The notes under the pieces: model-generated
What the model was told of the DNA's origin: nothing
The model's database searches: none
Seen by the model: only the letters and a program-made list of their open reading frames with translations
Shown here: positions 4,012-15,784 of the stretch, one piece after another
How the letters are laid out: each line of letters opens with the position of its first letter
Numbering within the stretch: position 1 is the stretch's first letter
Position numbers and translations under genes: made by a program
Origin: an uncultured Prochlorococcus sp.
GTDB taxonomy: Bacteria; Cyanobacteriota; Cyanobacteriia; PCC-6307; Cyanobiaceae
Direction: 5' to 3'
Assembly (NCBI GenBank): GCA_902622705.1
Contig: CACNQT010000011.1
Coordinates: forward strand, 1 to 36,379
DNA: 36,379 bases

Positions 4012-4543
4012 TAGTAATTTTTAAGTTGCTTTAATCTATCTGAATAATTTTAGGTTTGAGAAATATTTGCATAGAGAAAACCGAATTAAACAATTTTTTG
4101 ATCATCTAAGACAAAATTTAAAAATTTCAAGTTTAGATTGATTTTTCTTCACCTTAATTTTTAAATTGATACATCACGAAGAAAAAACTCTTTAAATTTT
4201 TTATCAACATGAGCTTCCTGAAAAGATATTTTATCTTTTTTAAAAAGTAATGATCCCACAGTTATAACAAGAGATTATGTGATTTTTAAACTATATTTTA
4301 TTTTTTTTGATGAAGTATTAATACTTAAAAATTTTTCTAGAAAAGCTTGTTTTGATAATGCTCCCGGAGAGTTATCCACTTTTTGAGCGTTTTTCAACAG
4401 GGTTTTCCACAATGTGTTGATTAAATTTGAATTTCTATGTGCAAAATAAAATATTATCTTCTTTTAAGAAAAACTATCCACAAATTTTTTTGGGGATCAC
4501 TATGATTTTAATCGTCTTTTAATAATTTAAAATTTCAAATTTT
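4012..4543. other. Gene-free AT-rich stretch of 532 bases
   Basis: I see no convincing open frame on either strand between the divergent genes at 3775-4011 and 4544-4669. The left half is plain AT-rich sequence. The right part (4372-4482) holds a cluster of DnaA-box-like nonamers, listed separately. A long gene-free stretch is unusual for this compact genome, so it probably has a DNA-level role. Confidence 0.6.
4372..4482 (+). promoter_or_regulatory. Cluster of four DnaA-box-like nonamers
   Basis: Within 111 bases four sequences close to the DnaA consensus TTATCCACA lie in the same orientation: TTATCCACT at 4372-4380, TTTTCAACA at 4391-4399, TTTTCCACA at 4403-4411 and CTATCCACA at 4474-4482. 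TTTTCCACA is a box form I associate with cyanobacteria. The surrounding DNA is AT-rich and gene-free. The cluster could bind DnaA for titration or regulation, or be part of an origin. No dnaA or dnaN gene lies in the window. Binding is inferred from sequence only. Confidence 0.5.
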
Positions 4544-10387: not shown

Positions 10388-10597
10388 TTAATATGCTTCA
10401 GAATAAAAAATTGTACTATTTTTTTGCCCACACTCACAAGCTTTAAGTAAATGATCACCCTGTGATATAAGTTTTTCGTATTTTGGAAAGCTCAAGACAG
10501 TAGCAAAAGTTTCTGTAGTTGTGTAGTGAAAGTGATTGCAAGTAATACAAATCTTTGTTCGTTTTCGTTTTAGGATAGATTCTTTTAGATATTCCCA
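10388..10597 (-). pseudogene. Cys-rich small protein frame without a start codon
   Basis: Read on the minus strand, 69 codons are open from 10597 to a TAA at 10388-10390. They contain CITCNHFHYTTTETFATV followed by HLLKACECGQKN, a CxxC...CxC layout that suggests a zinc ribbon. There is no ATG, GTG or TTG in the frame. An ATG at 10598-10596 lies one base out of frame and continues as a different, unconvincing reading. The gene may be frameshifted near its 5' end, or may use an ATT start. Upstream on this strand lies the DUF1651 gene at 10624. Confidence 0.4.
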
Positions 10598-10623
10598 TTA
10601 TGAAGGATTTACATTAATCATGA

Positions 10624-10914
10624 TTATTGGAATTTATGCGTAACAATTTGCCAACCACTGAAAATTAATTCATTCCATGTTTCACGAGCACATTCAATAG
10701 AATGAAGTCTTGAATTTTTAATTTGTTGTGGTTCACCTAGTTCATTTGCATAGAAAAGATGAGTATATACTTTTAAGTTATTAGATACAGATTTCTTATA
10801 ACTCTCAAAAAAAATTAAGAAACCACTGTTTTTGTTAAACAACCAACCATTTGGGGGGTCAATAACGCTGCCATGATGAAAATAAGTCCGAACATTAGCG
10901 ACTCCTGAAATCAT
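10624..10914 (-). CDS. DUF1651 family protein, copy A
   Basis: This is one of two DUF1651-like paralogues in the window (the other is at 13059). Shared landmarks are GVANV at the start, GWL near residue 23, a hydrophobic LIFF strand, THLFYANELGEPQQIKNS in the middle and W..L...GW at the end. DUF1651 is a small soluble family largely restricted to Prochlorococcus and marine Synechococcus; its function is unknown to me. The frame opens at ATG 10914, which has no ribosome binding site. An ATG at 10895 in another frame has AGGAG six bases before it, so how this protein is initiated is unclear (see findings). The promoter is at 10938-10966. Confidence 0.75.
   Translation of the reverse strand: MISGVANVRTYFHHGSVIDPPNGWLFNKNSGFLIFFESYKKSVSNNLKVYTHLFYANELGEPQQIKNSRLHSIECARETWNELIFSGWQIVTHKFQ
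10815..10895 (-). CDS. Overlapping 26-codon hydrophobic frame in DUF1651 copy A
   Basis: An ATG at 10895, preceded by CAGGAG with six bases between, opens a frame one base out of phase with DUF1651 and closes at TAA 10815-10817. The peptide starts MFGLIFIMAALLTPQ and is hydrophobic. The second DUF1651 gene has a frame of identical length at the aligned place, starting MFGLIFLTVIVMSPQ. It may be a leader peptide, or the real N terminus joined to DUF1651 by a -1 frameshift at the run of six C at about 10851-10858. Confidence 0.45.
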   Translation of the reverse strand: MFGLIFIMAALLTPQMVGCLTKTVVS

Positions 10915-10937
10915 AAAGATAAAACATTTGTACTATT

Positions 10938-10966
10938 AGTATAAATGTACTATATGTCTACGTCAA
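10938..10966 (-). promoter_or_regulatory. Sigma70-type promoter of DUF1651 copy A
   Basis: On the minus strand TTGACG (10966-10961) and TATACT (10943-10938) are separated by exactly 17 bases. The sequence around both hexamers is repeated before the second DUF1651 gene (AATACTTGACG before, TAGTACA after). The expected transcription start is near 10931, about 36 bases before the ATG with the ribosome binding site. Confidence 0.7.
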
Positions 10967-11104
10967 GTATTCATCAAAACATTTATATAAATACTAAAAT
11001 TTTTCCAGAAATAATCAGCCATAAACTTCTTATTTGGTAATAGTGTATACAAGTAACTCATTGAAAAGGAAAATATCATTAAAGAATATATCCAAAAGAA
11101 TGGA

Positions 11105-11341
11105 ATGTATCGAAATCCCTTCTATCTAGGATGGAATAAAGGTTGGTCTTTTTTATTTTTTTTTGAGGGTGGCACTGCAAAAATTGAAGCAAAAGGTTTT
11201 GGTATATCTATTACGACAAAAGTTGAAAAAGGAGAATCCCCCCTAGAATCTGCGGACAGATTAGTCTCGAAAGAGCAAAGGATTAGAAAATCAAGATATT
11301 ATTCTTGGGTTAAATCTATTAATGAAAAAACAATAAATTAA
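11105..11341 (+). CDS. Small soluble hypothetical protein, 78 aa
   Basis: A basic protein beginning MYRNPFYLGWNKGWSFLFFF, rich in aromatic residues, then a beta-like section (GGTAKIEAKGFGISITTKVE) and a helical basic C terminus (SKEQRIRKSRYYSWVKSI). No family is recognised. It lies 70 bases before the run of genes at 11411-12769, so linkage to them is possible. Start is the ATG at 11105. Confidence 0.5.
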   Translation: MYRNPFYLGWNKGWSFLFFFEGGTAKIEAKGFGISITTKVEKGESPLESADRLVSKEQRIRKSRYYSWVKSINEKTIN

Positions 11342-11410
11342 GCAATCCTCAAATTACTAAAGTAATTTGTTGACAATCAATTTAAAATAGAAATTAGATA
11401 TTTATTTTTC

Positions 11411-11668
11411 GTGTCCAATAAATTTTATGAACGGTGGAAAAACTATAGAAAAGTTGTAACCTATGGAGCTTTTATCATTTTGTTTGGTTTTTATTTATCT
11501 CCTGTTATCAAAGAAGCAAAATACAAAAACCAATGTATTAAGTACTCTACTAAAGGAGCTTTAACTAAATTTAATAAGGACGGTATAGGAGAAACTTTAC
11601 TAGAGGAAACAGGTTTGAACATTGATGAGCTAGCAAAGATTGAGGGTTATAAGAATTGCATTAATTAA
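11411..11668 (+). CDS. Single-helix membrane protein with Cys pair, 85 aa
   Basis: A short basic N terminus is followed by a hydrophobic helix, YGAFIILFGFYLSPV (residues about 18-32), then a charged outer domain with KEAKYKNQC and a C-terminal YKNCIN. Layout and cysteines resemble the protein at 3775-4011. The start is a GTG at 11411. It is the first gene of a close plus-strand cluster ending with the DNA ligase-like gene. Function is unknown. Confidence 0.55.
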   Translation: MSNKFYERWKNYRKVVTYGAFIILFGFYLSPVIKEAKYKNQCIKYSTKGALTKFNKDGIGETLLEETGLNIDELAKIEGYKNCIN

Positions 11669-11699
11669 AAAGTTCGCAAAAATTACGCTGAGTTTTTAA

Positions 11700-11906
11700 A
11701 TGATAAAAGGCATGTTTAAACTTCTTATATTAATATTAGTATTTGGATTTATATCAATAAGTCCAAAAACAAGATATTTGGTTGGCATAAAGCTAAAAGA
11801 AATTTCTTCATTTCTTTTATGGACTGTTAAATATGAAGATAGAGAAAAATGGATTATAGATAAACCAAGTTGGATGCCTAGCCAAAAACTTAAGCCATCG
11901 TATTAA
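11700..11906 (+). CDS. Single-helix membrane protein, 68 aa
   Basis: A hydrophobic helix near the N terminus (LLILILVFGFISISP, residues 8-22) is followed by a basic, aromatic domain with EKWIIDKPSWMPSQK at its end. Its TAA stop is directly followed by the ATG of the ligase-like gene at 11907, so the two are almost certainly on one transcript. It could anchor a partner to the membrane. No family is recognised. Confidence 0.55.
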   Translation: MIKGMFKLLILILVFGFISISPKTRYLVGIKLKEISSFLLWTVKYEDREKWIIDKPSWMPSQKLKPSY

Positions 11907-12656
11907 ATGAAGACTTATTTAGAAGAACGAATTGAATGGTATGACGATAATTATAGAAATGGTAATGCTTTAATCTCTGATAAGCAGTTCGACCAACTTG
12001 AGAAGAATTTATTAAGAACAAACCCTAATTGTGATTACTTTAAAAAGAAAAATAAACTAGTTTTACCTTCATTAGAAAAGGATTCAATAGATGAATTTTT
12101 GAAAGGATTATTAGTAGATACCAGATTATTAATTGAACCGAAAATTGATGGTTGTGCTGTTGCTTTGCAATATAGGGATGGAACCTTGGAGAAAGCAATT
12201 TCAAGAAAAGGAACAGACGTTACTAGTAAGCTTATTAACATCCAAGATATTCCTAATAATCTCCCTTTACGAGGCGTTCTTCAAGTTAGAGGTGAATTAT
12301 ATTCACCCAACAAAAGTCCAAAAATCTCCCAAAGAATTGCTTCTGGATTTCTAAGAGCTAAAGAAGGATTTTCTGGAAGTCTTAGCTTCTGCGCATTTCA
12401 AATACTTAATTCAAAACTTAACCAATTTGAGTCCAAAAAGAGTCTTACTAAGCTAGGATTCACTATCCCTCAAGATATTTTATGCAACTTTACTAGCCAA
12501 GTTGAAGTATTTAGAAAACAATGGCTAGAAGGGAAGCTTTTTACTAAATATCCAACAGATGGAATAGTAGTAAAAATAAATTCTAGAAAATTACAATTAA
12601 TTAGAGAAAAATCAAATTTAGATTATCCTTATTGGCAAGTGGCAATAAAACGTTAA
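11907..12656 (+). CDS. Stand-alone NAD+-dependent DNA ligase adenylation domain
   Basis: The 249 residues match the N-terminal nucleotidyltransferase part of LigA. An Ia-like segment (ALISDKQFDQLEKNLL, residues 21-36) should bind the NMN side of NAD+. Then come LPSLEKD at 53-59, the adenylation motif KIDG at 79-82 with Lys79 as the AMP acceptor, VRGELY at 127-132, DGIVVKIN at 218-225 and the motif V lysine at 248 in WQVAIKR. The protein ends there. The OB fold, zinc finger, helix-hairpin-helix and BRCT domains of a 670-residue LigA are absent. Self-adenylation with NAD+ looks possible; nick sealing alone does not. It is tightly linked to small membrane genes on both sides. Confidence 0.85.
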   Translation: MKTYLEERIEWYDDNYRNGNALISDKQFDQLEKNLLRTNPNCDYFKKKNKLVLPSLEKDSIDEFLKGLLVDTRLLIEPKIDGCAVALQYRDGTLEKAISRKGTDVTSKLINIQDIPNNLPLRGVLQVRGELYSPNKSPKISQRIASGFLRAKEGFSGSLSFCAFQILNSKLNQFESKKSLTKLGFTIPQDILCNFTSQVEVFRKQWLEGKLFTKYPTDGIVVKINSRKLQLIREKSNLDYPYWQVAIKR

Positions 12657-12769
12657 TGGAATTAATACACCAGATTTTTCCTACTTGGCATATTTACTTG
12701 GATATGTTTTTGGTTGGCTTTGCAACTTACGGTTTTCTGAGAATTAAGAAAAAAATAAAAACTAAATAA
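12656..12769 (+). CDS. 37-residue membrane peptide overlapping the ligase-like gene
   Basis: The ATG overlaps the ligase stop codon by one base (TAATG), a classic sign of coupled translation. The peptide has an aromatic N terminus (MELIHQIFPTWHIYLD), a short hydrophobic stretch (MFLVGFATYGFL) and a strongly basic tail (RIKKKIKTK). It could sit at the membrane beside the ligase-like protein. No family is recognised. Confidence 0.5.
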   Translation: MELIHQIFPTWHIYLDMFLVGFATYGFLRIKKKIKTK

Positions 12770-12779
12770 AGTTTTTAAA

Positions 12780-12932
12780 TCATCCGTGGTCCTTAAGCAT
12801 GGATTTAAGTTGTTCGGTATCTAATTGTTCAAGATAATTTCTCATTGCCAACCAAGATCTTCTGCTTTCTAACTTTCCACTTTGTTTAAATAAATTTGCG
12901 GAAACTTGATCTATCAATTCTTTATGAGACAT
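12780..12932 (-). CDS. Small helical protein, 50 aa
   Basis: Start is taken at the ATG at 12932 (MSHKELIDQVSANLFKQ), not at upstream codons of the same frame, because that start overlaps the end of the previous gene by only 11 bases. The product is soluble and helical, with LESRRSWLAMRNYLEQL. It is the third gene of a coupled minus-strand operon led by DUF1651 copy B. Function is unknown. Confidence 0.55.
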   Translation of the reverse strand: MSHKELIDQVSANLFKQSGKLESRRSWLAMRNYLEQLDTEQLKSMLKDHG

Positions 12933-13062
12933 ATTTATATTCTTCATCAAGTTCAATGACAACACCATTAAAAAATTCTGCTAATGATTTTGATGGGTCT
13001 TGTATAGATATCTTTCTATCTGCTTTTGATAGTTTCTTTTTGATTGGATTTAAGTTAGTCAT
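12922..13062 (-). CDS. Small basic protein, 46 aa, in the DUF1651 operon
   Basis: ATG at 13062 overlaps the DUF1651 stop codon by four bases (ATGA), and its own end overlaps the next gene by 11 bases. A lysine-rich N terminus (MTNLNPIKKKLSKADRK) leads into an acidic C terminus (VVIELDEEYKYVS). The three overlapping genes are surely translated from one mRNA. I do not recognise a family. Confidence 0.55.
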   Translation of the reverse strand: MTNLNPIKKKLSKADRKISIQDPSKSLAEFFNGVVIELDEEYKYVS

Positions 13063-13373
13063 ACTGATTCAGGTAATTCAAGTTCTTCAAAAGTCCAACC
13101 TTCTAATTGAAGGTCATGCCATTTATCCCAAGCATTATCCAAATACATTTGAGTGGACGATTTAATTGCCATTGGCTCACCAAAATCATTTGCATAATAT
13201 GTATGAGCAAAAATTCTCATACTATTTCTTGGAGATTTTTTATTCTTTGTAAATAAAATTAATCTGCTGCGGTCTGGACTAAGCAACCAACCACTTGGGG
13301 ACTCATTACGATAACCGTAAGAAAAATTAGTCCAAACATTAGCTCCTCCTAAAGTCATTAATTGATAATACAT
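13059..13373 (-). CDS. DUF1651 family protein, copy B
   Basis: This 104-residue paralogue of the protein at 10624 shares GANV, GWL, LILF, AHTYYANDFGEPMAIKSS and the C-terminal W..L...GW. It leads an operon of three overlapping genes. The frame opens at ATG 13373, which lies only about four bases from the predicted transcription start and has no ribosome binding site. In contrast AGGAGG lies just before an out-of-frame ATG at 13339. The N-terminal 20 residues of this frame are poorly conserved between the copies while the rest is well conserved, so the true start may differ from the one given here. Confidence 0.75.
   Translation of the reverse strand: MYYQLMTLGGANVWTNFSYGYRNESPSGWLLSPDRSRLILFTKNKKSPRNSMRIFAHTYYANDFGEPMAIKSSTQMYLDNAWDKWHDLQLEGWTFEELELPESV
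13259..13339 (-). CDS. Overlapping 26-codon hydrophobic frame in DUF1651 copy B
   Basis: ATG at 13339, preceded by TTAGGAGGAGCTA (a near-perfect Shine-Dalgarno sequence at ideal distance), opens a frame that closes at TAA 13259-13261. It starts MFGLIFLTVIVMSPQ. Start position, stop position and length are the same as in copy A, and most differences between the two are synonymous or between similar hydrophobic residues. In the DUF1651 frame the same changes alter amino acids drastically. Confidence 0.5.
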   Translation of the reverse strand: MFGLIFLTVIVMSPQVVGCLVQTAAD

Positions 13374-13383
13374 GTGTACTACT

Positions 13384-13413
13384 AATATAAGTATATTAGA
13401 AATGGATCGTCAA
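13384..13413 (-). promoter_or_regulatory. Sigma70-type promoter of the DUF1651 copy B operon
   Basis: On the minus strand TTGACG (13413-13408) and TATATT (13389-13384) are 18 bases apart. The flanks (AATACTTGACG, then TAGTACA after the second hexamer) repeat those of copy A at 10938-10966. The expected transcription start is near 13377. Confidence 0.65.
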
Positions 13414-13481
13414 GTATTTTGGTAAACAAATTATTTAACTCATCAAATTCAATACATGATTGACAGTCGATCTAAAATTGA

Positions 13482-13502
13482 AGGGATAAAACCCTCTTTT
13501 TT
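13482..13502 (+). other. Short hairpin with T run just before a start codon
   Basis: AGGG (13482-13485) pairs with CCCT (13492-13495), and the run CTTTTTT ends exactly at the ATG at 13503. It has the look of a small terminator or attenuator that also hides the AGGG ribosome binding site. The stem is only four bases, so it may be chance. Confidence 0.3.
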
Positions 13503-13763
13503 ATGAATACCTTAATAGTTTCTACTTTTGATTGTTCTTTTGAAGATTTCGATAAATTTGTAGCTGATTTCCACGAAGAGGAGGGACATAAATATGTCGA
13601 AGAATATGAGCTCATCAAGGTAAATGATCATAAAAGTCACTTAATACTTAAAGTAAAAGACTTAGAAGGATTTGCTGCTGCTACAAGTACTCCAGAGATG
13701 AAAGAGTGGGATAAAGAAAATGGTTATAAAGATATTTGTTATTCACTAACTCCAGTTGAATAA
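13503..13763 (+). CDS. Small alpha-beta protein, DUF3764-like (tentative), 86 aa
   Basis: The protein opens with a beta strand (MNTLIVSTFDCSFEDFDKFV), has a second strand (HKSHLILKVKDLEGFAAATS) and a conserved-looking end, STPEMKEWDKENGYKD. The pattern fits a small ferredoxin-like dimeric fold, and I tentatively place it with the DUF3764-type cyanobacterial proteins; this was not searched. It stands alone on the plus strand, with a short hairpin directly before its start. Confidence 0.6.
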   Translation: MNTLIVSTFDCSFEDFDKFVADFHEEEGHKYVEEYELIKVNDHKSHLILKVKDLEGFAAATSTPEMKEWDKENGYKDICYSLTPVE

Positions 13764-14345: not shown

Positions 14346-14396
14346 CAAAAAAAAGACCTCTCAAAAACTGTTGCAATAACAAGCTTTTGAAAGGTT
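14346..14396 (-). terminator. Intrinsic terminator of the 6S RNA / purK locus
   Basis: On the minus strand the sequence at 14395-14380 (ACCTTTCAAAAGC) pairs with GTTTTTGAGAGGT at 14368-14356, with few mismatches or G-U pairs, and is followed by T8 after one C (complement of the A run at 14347-14354). It is a long, strong intrinsic terminator just downstream of the 6S RNA body. Confidence 0.8.
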
Positions 14397-14397
14397 A

Positions 14398-14570
14398 ACC
14401 GGATCCCCGTCAGTTCTCTGCTGCATCGACCTGGAAAAGCCAGAAGAGGATTCAAAGTGGGCTTTCGTTTCCGATTACAAGATCGGTTTACTACCGCATC
14501 ACGACAGTCTCCTCACGTCGAAAGAAAGTCAGATCAGAGCACATAAAGAAGAACTTAACCAAAGATCCAG
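14398..14570 (-). ncRNA. ssaA: 6S RNA (cyanobacterial ssaA type)
   Basis: The region after purK has no open frame and can form the closed rod of 6S RNA, which binds the housekeeping RNA polymerase holoenzyme by imitating an open promoter. On the minus strand GGATCTTTG (14568-14560) pairs with the 3' part CGGGGATCC (14409-14401), and AGTTCT (14555-14550) pairs with AGAACT (14417-14412), separated by a small internal loop. Inside lie hairpins AAAGCC/GGCTTT and CCGAT/ATCGG. Length of about 170 bases, position next to purK (where I recall cyanobacterial 6S RNA lies) and the strong terminator at 14346-14396 all agree. The ends are estimates. Confidence 0.7.
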
Positions 14571-14593
14571 TAACATAACTTTAACTCATTTTT

Positions 14594-15784
14594 TTATCCA
14601 TTTGGAGATGGCCAAATGTCTCTTACCATAGTTAATAAAACTTGAGCTTCATCATATCTTTCTGAATGCGTTTTACCATTTAATAAAAATGTAATGTGAG
14701 CCATTTTTCTTCCCAGAATTTCTCGAGATTTGCCATAACAATGAATATTAGAACCCTCAATTTCAGATAACATTTTAATTCTGGTTTCCAATGAGATTGG
14801 GAAATTCTTTTTTAATCCCAGTAGATTTATCATAATTGCCCCTTCACAGTTCATTTTAATTTCAGGTGGCATTATCCCAGAAGAAATGCAAACATATTGA
14901 TCAAACTGACTTGAAGTACAAGCTTCAATAGAGAAATGAGCTGAGTTATGTGTTCTAGGAGCTATTTCATTAATTAAAAGACCATTATCGCCATAGAAGA
15001 ATTCAATAGCTAAAACTCCAACGTAATTAAGTTCATTGACTATTGAAGAGAAAATATTTATTGCAAATAAGTTCAAATCATATTCATTTGTTCCAGGTGC
15101 AAGAACCCAATCACAAACATGGTTTGATTGGAATGTCTCAACTATTGGAAAGAATCTTATCTTTCCGGTCCTATCTCTCGAACCAACAAGAGCCAGTTCT
15201 TTTTCATACTCTATCCATTCTTCTATTAACCATTCATCAGAATTATTATCTGTTAAAAAAGAATCTAAATCTTCTTTTGTCTTTATTTTTCTGTTCCCTT
15301 TGCCGTCATATCCACCTTTATTTGATTTTGCCATTAGAGGAAAAGTCCAATTATTAATTTCCTCATTCGAGAGATTTTTAAAATCTTCAATACTTATCCA
15401 TTTTGGACAGGGAATATTCATTCTATCTATTAATTTTTTTTGAGAAAACCTATCTACTAATGGCTTAATTGCATTAAGGCTTGGAACAAAAATATCTTTA
15501 TTGCCAATTAAATTTAATTTATCAATTTTTATCCATTCATTTTCAAAAATTATTTTTTCACACTCATTAATTAATGATTTATTACCTCTAATCTTTAAAG
15601 GATCAGCTTCTATGACATGATCTGCTTTTAAACCAGCAGGATCATCACAAGATTTTGTTTGCACACATACTTCTAGATCTCTTTTTTTTGCTGCCTCCGT
15701 TAACATCAAAGCCAATTGACCACCTCCAATTATTCCTAGGGAATAATTTTTCTTAATATCGTTTATATTTTTTTTAAAACTCAT
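14594..15784 (-). CDS. purK: N5-carboxyaminoimidazole ribonucleotide synthase PurK
   Basis: PurK converts AIR, ATP and bicarbonate into N5-CAIR in cytosolic purine synthesis; PurE then rearranges it. The 396 residues show the preATP-grasp start GIIGGGQLALMLTEAAKK (about residues 18-35), the ATP-grasp core with PLMAKSNKGGYDGKGNRKI and EEWIEYEKELALVGSRD, and the family motif EIAPRTHNSAHFSIEAC with metal-binding Glu and Asn. Length is normal. It is the first gene of a minus-strand unit that continues into the 6S RNA region. Start is the ATG at 15784. Confidence 0.96.
   Translation of the reverse strand: MSFKKNINDIKKNYSLGIIGGGQLALMLTEAAKKRDLEVCVQTKSCDDPAGLKADHVIEADPLKIRGNKSLINECEKIIFENEWIKIDKLNLIGNKDIFVPSLNAIKPLVDRFSQKKLIDRMNIPCPKWISIEDFKNLSNEEINNWTFPLMAKSNKGGYDGKGNRKIKTKEDLDSFLTDNNSDEWLIEEWIEYEKELALVGSRDRTGKIRFFPIVETFQSNHVCDWVLAPGTNEYDLNLFAINIFSSIVNELNYVGVLAIEFFYGDNGLLINEIAPRTHNSAHFSIEACTSSQFDQYVCISSGIMPPEIKMNCEGAIMINLLGLKKNFPISLETRIKMLSEIEGSNIHCYGKSREILGRKMAHITFLLNGKTHSERYDEAQVLLTMVRDIWPSPNG

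Follow-up and report, generated by a model that had tools for sequence, protein, structure and literature searches.

An apparent overlapping reading frame under selection near the start of Prochlorococcus DUF1651 genes that carry LexA-type boxes

DUF1651 genes of Prochlorococcus that carry LexA-type boxes have, as judged from sequence comparison, a real overlapping open reading frame (ORF). Starting from two gene copies in the window (the whole 36,379-nucleotide stretch of DNA that was analysed, from an uncultured Prochlorococcus sp.), the analysis brought out the anatomy of these loci, their LexA-type boxes and selection in both reading frames, with 293 natural sequences from several paralogues of this abundant marine phototroph providing evidence for both frames at the level of substitutions. 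We consider it likely that each locus is a LexA-type unit in which ribosomes start at two AUGs of a single mRNA that lie 19 nt apart and out of frame with each other; the shared DNA is probably translated in both frames, with no ribosomal slip to join them.

Layout of the two copies and the start of DUF1651

Both copies lie on the minus strand (Table 1). From 5′ to 3′, copy B presents a promoter-like sequence, a LexA-type box, ATG 13358, AGGAGG, ATG 13339, the leader stop and the DUF1651 stop at 13059; copy A (10966-10624) has the same layout plus a second LexA-like box. The promoter-like sequences came from a consensus scan in which the region overall held fewer promoter-like sites than its shuffles. 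The two frame-0 ORFs matched Pfam PF07864 (8.9e-10 and 1.8e-14) with 39.3 and 54.4 bits relative to the Pfam gathering cut-off of 22, which places both in the DUF1651 family. The earlier note had described AGGAGG followed by an out-of-frame ATG at 13339, which opens a 26-codon frame with the same start, stop and length in copy A; both observations were borne out, and the frame is +1 relative to DUF1651.

Table 1. Positions of features at the two DUF1651 loci of the window
Feature	Position	Strand	Description and basis
Promoter-like sequence, copy B	13384..13413	-	TTGACG-N18-TATATT; consensus scan
LexA-type operator, copy B	13366..13381	-	TAGTACACATGTATTA; contains ATG 13373; compared with published MED4 boxes given in PMC3091678
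DUF1651, copy B	13059..13358	-	99 aa; proposed start ATG 13358; Pfam PF07864 (scanned from 13373)
Shine-Dalgarno (SD) AGGAGG, copy B	13345..13350	-	5 nt 5′ of leader ATG, within frame-0 CDS
Leader ORF, copy B	13259..13339	-	26 codons, +1 frame relative to DUF1651; product MFGLIFLTVIVMSPQVVGCLVQTAAD
C run, copy B	13297..13300	-	Four C; slip site proposed in the earlier note; conservation not strict
Promoter-like sequence, copy A	10938..10966	-	TTGACG-N17-TATACT; consensus scan
Second LexA-like box, copy A	10937..10952	-	TAGTACATTTATACTA; over the -10; one mismatch
LexA-type box, copy A	10920..10935	-	TAGTACAAATGTTTTA; one mismatch to search pattern
DUF1651, copy A	10624..10914	-	96 aa; frame-0 ATG 10914; PF07864
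SD AGGAG, copy A leader	10902..10906	-	Sequence
Leader ORF, copy A	10815..10895	-	26 codons, MFGLIFIMAALLTPQMVGCLTKTVVS; start, stop and length as in copy B

Relatives were collected as 293 distinct sequences of 430 nt, assigned to paralogues A (113), B (149), C (22) and D (9); 165 came from contigs of the AGGAGNNGCTAATGTTYGGACT search and 128 from genome loci. An earlier set comprised 246 sequences (129 B, 97 A, 20 C), and the 47 later additions had to carry a box with at most two mismatches. Three chance pattern matches (L153, L154 and L197) were removed before counting. GGAG stood at the place of the leader SD in 126 of 129 B, all 97 A and 19 of 20 C sequences.

ATG 13373 had been taken in the earlier note as the frame-0 start, an assignment that did not hold up, as this ATG sits inside the LexA-type box. 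The frame from 13373 is open in the window itself. An in-frame ATG occupies the corresponding place in 123 of 149 B sequences, 97 of which have an in-frame stop before the codon at −19 from the leader ATG, and in none of the 113 A sequences. The frame-0 codon at −19 itself is ATG in 285 of the 293 sequences; in the earlier set it was ATG in 128 of 129 B sequences (GTG in the other one) and in 94 of 97 A sequences, all three A exceptions being broken genes. Of the eight sequences missing the frame-0 ATG, six had a broken DUF1651, compared with 3 of the 285 that kept it (Fisher 2.8e-9), and the two with an intact gene had GTG and ACG at −19. Because the 13373 frame is mostly interrupted in B and its ATG is absent from A, and because the −19 ATG is conserved, DUF1651 of copy B most likely starts at ATG 13358 (10914 in copy A), 19 nt 5′ of the leader ATG. 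Copy B thus gains a revised proposed start and, from the boxes described below, DUF1651 gains a proposed regulator.

Substitutions in the two reading frames

The presence of the leader ORF (ATG, SD and open frame) is by itself weak evidence. When the frame-0 protein was recoded synonymously, a +1 ATG, an open 25-codon frame and GGAG occurred together in 28.6% (B) and 8.6% (A) of recodings, and in 14-residue windows of 19 ORFs of the window the mean GRAVY was 0.13 in the +1 frame vs −0.20 in frame 0. GRAVY values of 1.9 or more were reached in only 1.9% of +1 windows; the leaders have 2.2-2.4 over 14 residues. As the ORF features commonly arise in recodings and +1 frames are here the more hydrophobic, the case rests on the substitutions, whose evolutionary pattern is not chance. 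A lipobox reading of the ..LAGC/VVGC residues of the leaders was rejected: Cys occupies the position in 106 of the 113 A sequences and 127 of the 149 in B, but C mostly has Tyr (19 of 22) and D mostly Phe (7 of 9).

Changes were placed by parsimony on trees and sorted as silent in frame 0 or silent in the leader frame. For the main analysis the trees were built solely from sequence beyond the overlap, expected counts were set by the neutral frame-0 synonymous rate of the DUF1651 domain, and coverage was 108 of the 113 A sequences, 145 of the 149 in B and 26 of the 31 in C+D (D being analysed only jointly with C), after broken sequences and those with a leader start other than ATG had been left out; the P values use a simple mutation weighting and take changes as independent. 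In an earlier substitution count, 5 of 97 A sequences had been set aside for a frame-0 stop.

Over leader codons 2-7, changes silent in frame 0, which alter the leader, numbered 1 against 22.6 expected in A, 1 against 26.7 in B and 2 against 14.5 in C+D; leader-silent changes numbered 40 against 22.9 in A, 4 against 39.2 in B and 1 against 21.3 in C+D. Both synonymous classes are therefore depleted over these codons in B and C+D, the pattern looked for in overlapping genes with selection on both frames. Over codons 8-13 the frame-0-silent counts (observed/expected) were 18/26.0 in A (P 0.06), 15/35.3 in B and 7/20.7 in C+D, and the leader-silent counts were 36/35.5, 4/36.8 and 20/22.4, respectively. 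Over codons 14-25 they were, in the same order, 22/46.4, 103/82.7 and 49/46.3 for frame-0-silent and 18/49.8, 33/89.1 and 18/42.5 for leader-silent changes. Since the five frame-0 codons preceding the leader ATG were undepleted at frame-0-silent sites (59/21.5 in A, 30/32.9 in B, 18/20.8 in C+D), the freeze sets in close to the leader ATG, and a general 5′-end effect does not account for it; in sliding windows, B and C were depleted from near that ATG to about +38. Internal branches alone gave the same direction with small counts, and the A frame-0-silent value for codons 8-13 was then 3/4.9, which is not significant.

Up to the C run of A, selection is on the leader frame, strong over codons 2-7 and weak over 8-13; past the run, both frames look constrained. 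In B the codons up to 13 are constrained in both frames, the more strongly in frame 0, and the later ones in frame 0 alone. C+D show constraint on both frames over codons 2-7, on the leader frame over 8-13 and on frame 0 alone thereafter. Selection on the leader frame reaches about codon 13 in B and C+D; in A it probably extends as far as the leader stop, a claim for the A tail that is weakened because depletion there continues beyond the leader stop (21/34.8, P 8e-3), so that part of it may reflect a generally slow stretch. With no leader-frame selection beyond codon 13, B and C+D do not conserve a 26-aa product as such. This many-genome alignment, scored by frame, gave leader-frame depletion from its ATG in A, B and C+D. 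The earlier note had compared copies A and B and found changes over the first 13 codons to be synonymous or conservative in the leader frame; that comparison holds, but it hides the frame-0 conservation that precedes the C run within B.

Three B sequences with an intact DUF1651 have no normal leader (two with ACG for ATG, one with a stop at codon 19), and a C-type minus-strand copy of another genome (L007, genome G074) has lost the SD and leader ATG with DUF1651 still open. As these sequences keep DUF1651, the leader is dispensable in some genomes. The former leader frame of the C-type copy has acquired N and D residues.

A leader that is never translated, the conserved stretch being instead a DNA or RNA signal (antisense RNA, RNA structure or protein-binding site) with the ORF incidental to it, seems to us improbable. 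Such a nucleotide-level signal would give the freeze of both frames seen over codons 2-7 in B and C+D, and the joint occurrence of ATG, SD and open frame in 29% of B recodings would agree with it, as would the antisense RNA of the MED4 gene PMM0684, co-induced in infection according to PMC2518516. It would not, however, give the pattern of A, where over the same stretch changes follow the codon degeneracy of the leader, and neither of two single-sequence folds stood out (z −0.55 and 0.59). RNA structure was rejected as an explanation for the freeze: besides the unremarkable folds, the long stem predicted for B joins the leader start to frequently changing positions, and a search of 10400-13700 against Rfam gave no family at E up to 1.

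The earlier note had offered, as one of two readings, a −1 frameshift at CCC in a C run near 13295-13299; the run is at 13300-13297 in copy B and, as six C, at 10858-10853 in copy A. A slip there would fuse the hydrophobic leader to DUF1651 and yield a membrane-anchored protein, which we regard as very improbable. Leader selection does end, and frame-0-only selection begin, at about the C run in B and C+D, as the earlier note had proposed, but in A the leader still looks selected beyond it, though the slow stretch slightly exceeds the leader stop; a peptide whose first 13 residues matter explains the change after the run equally well. Before the run, frame 0 is selected in B and over C+D codons 2-7 and unselected in A and over C+D codons 8-13; a frameshift needs no such selection, yet in B it is evident at leader-silent sites over codons 8-13. 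Nor does a fusion need a frame-0 ATG, yet this ATG is conserved and is mostly lost together with DUF1651. One A copy on a draft contig (L056) has a C-run indel that fuses exactly the leader and DUF1651 frames, but this may be a mutation or a sequencing error.

The slip site itself is variable. The form TCCCCAAG is kept in 117 of 129 B sequences; of the 12 that depart from it, two do so only after the C run (TCCCCAAA) and ten inside it (TCACC, TCTCC, TACCC, ACTCC and TTTCC), and DUF1651 is open in all 129. The A sequences have ACACCCCA, ACGCCCCA and ACATCCCA alongside ACCCCCCA, and TCACCC forms are among the variants found in A and C. In B no other of the first fourteen leader codons changed as often as the C-run codon, which in A and C is among the more changed. 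The run is thus mostly kept but is not the conserved slippery site of programmed −1 frameshifting. The two single-sequence folds mentioned above, which bear also on a stimulatory structure 3′ of the C run, had z −0.55 and 0.59. Frame-0 selection before the run in B, the conserved −19 ATG and this variable site all tell against the frameshift; the other reading in the earlier note, a short ORF overlapping DUF1651, is supported in corrected form, with the +1 frame selected to about codon 13.

LexA-type boxes, gene neighbours and spread

A box with at most one mismatch from RGTACN4GTAYT stood upstream of 245 of 246 members, compared with 0.4% of shuffles; the box counts are given only for this earlier set because the 47 added sequences were chosen by box. 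The loci thus carry, in the promoter, an operator of the AGTACWNWTGTACT type that marks the LexA/SOS regulon, and the boxes fit the operator consensus and the MED4 recA and lexA boxes presented in PMC3091678. A one-mismatch version begins 31 nt 5′ of the lexA ATG in the window's genome, and the lexA product there matches Pfam LexA_DNA_bind (2.6e-23). These features point to LexA as the protein that would bind the boxes.

Two MED4 genes, PMM0684 and PMM0819, are described in PMC5490813 as induced by phage P-SSP7. By inference, the C-type locus at 652.9 kb of genome G033 is MED4 PMM0684, the purK-yfr7-PMM0684 spacing fitting the table in PMC1242208, and gene order only suggests that the B-type locus at 774.7 kb is PMM0819. 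The genes with LexA-type boxes would then include a MED4 gene reported as phage-induced.

A 6S RNA (Rfam RF00013, 90.9 bits) lies at 14392-14576 (-) of the window, between copy B and an ORF at 14594-15784 taken as purK by gene order; in MED4, yfr7 lies between purK and PMM0684 (PMC1242208), and the 6S RNA of the window is placed much alike. The window also holds a Yfr17 sRNA (RF02365, 112 bits) at 4257-4521 (-). Elsewhere in the genus, other LexA-like boxes were found at L257:635-650, L257:3663-3698 and L256:625-640 and near position 1102 of L258; their settings include a place beside a short ORF that ends upstream of L257:635, a tandem pair before MKVISSSPYA... and C3:61624. A perfect LexA-like palindrome is present 2.9 kb upstream of copy B in G001. 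These may extend the SOS regulon; a reversed-pattern control gave several one-mismatch box matches per genome, so some of them are chance.

The pattern AGGAGNNGCTAATGTTYGGACT occurred in at least 118 stretches in genome contigs, and among the matches listed the titles were Prochlorococcus or Synechococcaceae. Among 400 sampled genomes of the family, a looser pattern (at most two mismatches) matched 64 of the 68 that belong to the window's genus; the other 332 included three with a match, one each and at two mismatches, and the two of these inspected were chance. Within the genus a similar pattern was present in 215 of 265 genomes and in 81 of 87 near-complete ones. One exact leader DNA pattern had no match in viral contigs, and tblastn gave no relative of DUF1651 B in phage records at E up to 0.01. 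The window's genome has another paralogue (C3:18050-18316), with DUF1651 and a box and no leader; because its frame-0 N-terminus (..YSFG..) resembles that of copy B (..FSYG..), frame 0 may be the older of the two frames. A distant DUF1651 gene in another genus (L210, genome G341) also has AGTACAAGTGTAC upstream, and on this account LexA control of DUF1651 may predate the leader.

A proposed two-start unit and its known parallels

In the unit that we propose, LexA would act as repressor, a step that the boxes support. The upstream AUG at 13358, at which no SD is seen and which has a predicted 5′ leader of about 18 nt, would start DUF1651, as conservation of the start codon suggests; the downstream AUG at 13339, with a strong SD within the DUF1651 CDS, would start a 26-residue hydrophobic peptide, to which the SD, the ATG and selection at the codon level all point. 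The peptide ORF would be nested, in the +1 frame, in the 5′ end of DUF1651, and because the SD lies between the two starts they should, from their spacing, compete for ribosomes. Selection acts on the hydrophobic first half of the peptide (MFGLIF..., codons 1-13) in A, B and C+D, and the leader peptide, presumably translated, would act in or at the membrane during an SOS or phage response, as its hydrophobicity alone suggests.

An AlphaFold model of DUF1651 B (window 13062-13358, -; 16 sequences) had a mean pLDDT of 73.5, with residues 1-16 below 50 and a beta-sheet-plus-helix domain from about residue 21. The part of DUF1651 that shares DNA with the leader is thus predicted to form a disordered tail ahead of the P.GWL domain, and because the overlap would fall in this tail dual coding could be tolerated. 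Comparison of the fold gave a best Foldseek E of 0.33 and a best VIA Z of 4.9 and was not used. The top VIA rows were PARP2 and PARP1 chains (Z 4.9, 4.8 and 4.5), within the chance range; their aligned ranges would be the WGR domain, which is curious beside a LexA-type box.

In its fullest form, which we advance tentatively and with rather less than even confidence, the proposal is of a dual-coding SOS cassette: DNA damage or phage infection would de-repress one mRNA that yields a membrane peptide and DUF1651, competition between the starts would set their ratio, and several paralogues would have arisen by duplication of the cassette, selection having shifted between the frames to fall mainly on the leader in A and on frame 0 in B. 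The strongest rival of the two-start unit is a purely regulatory upstream ORF: DUF1651 would be tuned by translation of the leader, or by a stall of the nascent chain over the first 13 leader residues, and the peptide itself would be without function. The placing of the leader start where competition with the DUF1651 start is expected, and the selection of only about the first 13 codons in B and C+D, are what such an ORF would show. Amino acids are nevertheless constrained over codons 2-7 of A, as the contrast between leader-changing and leader-silent counts indicates, which goes beyond initiation, and the probable full-length constraint in A asks more than the act of translation, although a stall could explain codons 1-13. 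Broken DUF1651 copies, for their part, have no clear extra protection of the leader, in line with a regulatory role: L051, the most diverged broken copy with a full-length leader, has 6 nucleotide differences in synonymous leader codons and 13 in non-synonymous ones. All nine broken copies have the leader ATG, in a sample biased by collecting patterns that required this stretch; with this bias, and with L051 not clearly protein-like, decayed copies were rejected as proof of an independent leader. Taken together, we judge the regulatory ORF to be unlikely.

No description of an overlapping ORF at DUF1651 genes was found in those parts of the literature returned by searches on the family, on the MED4 genes and on broader terms. 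If translated, the peptide of the proposed cassette would be an unannotated product of the SOS or phage response.

Functional small ORFs in another frame of a larger gene include Bacillus comS inside srfA and phage Rz1 inside Rz; their sequences are unrelated to the present ones, and they are placed internally, whereas the leader lies across the initiation region. E. coli TisB is an SOS-induced small membrane peptide. Like TisB, the leader product would be small and hydrophobic and come from a promoter bearing an SOS-type box; unlike TisB, it would overlap a conserved protein gene. TisB is 29 aa long (PMC2518516). Toxins of the TisB kind are membrane-active and paired with an antisense antitoxin; the observations that bear on this are the hydrophobicity of the leaders (GRAVY 2.2-2.4 over 14 residues) and the antisense RNA reported for PMM0684. 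The ambiguous start sites of E. coli pqiA and tamA resemble the present loci in having short out-of-frame ORFs beside the annotated start, as described in PMC9841429; there the evidence came from reporter assays, whereas here it is selection on the extra frame across many genomes. Another description in that source concerns Thermus rnpA/rpmH, where two nearby out-of-frame starts on one mRNA partition initiation between a gene and one nested in it (PMC9841429). The two AUGs of Thermus share one SD and are one nucleotide apart, whereas those of the DUF1651 loci are 19 nt apart, with an SD at the inner AUG alone. That inner start would here yield a hydrophobic peptide of 26 aa, from a unit with a LexA-type box.
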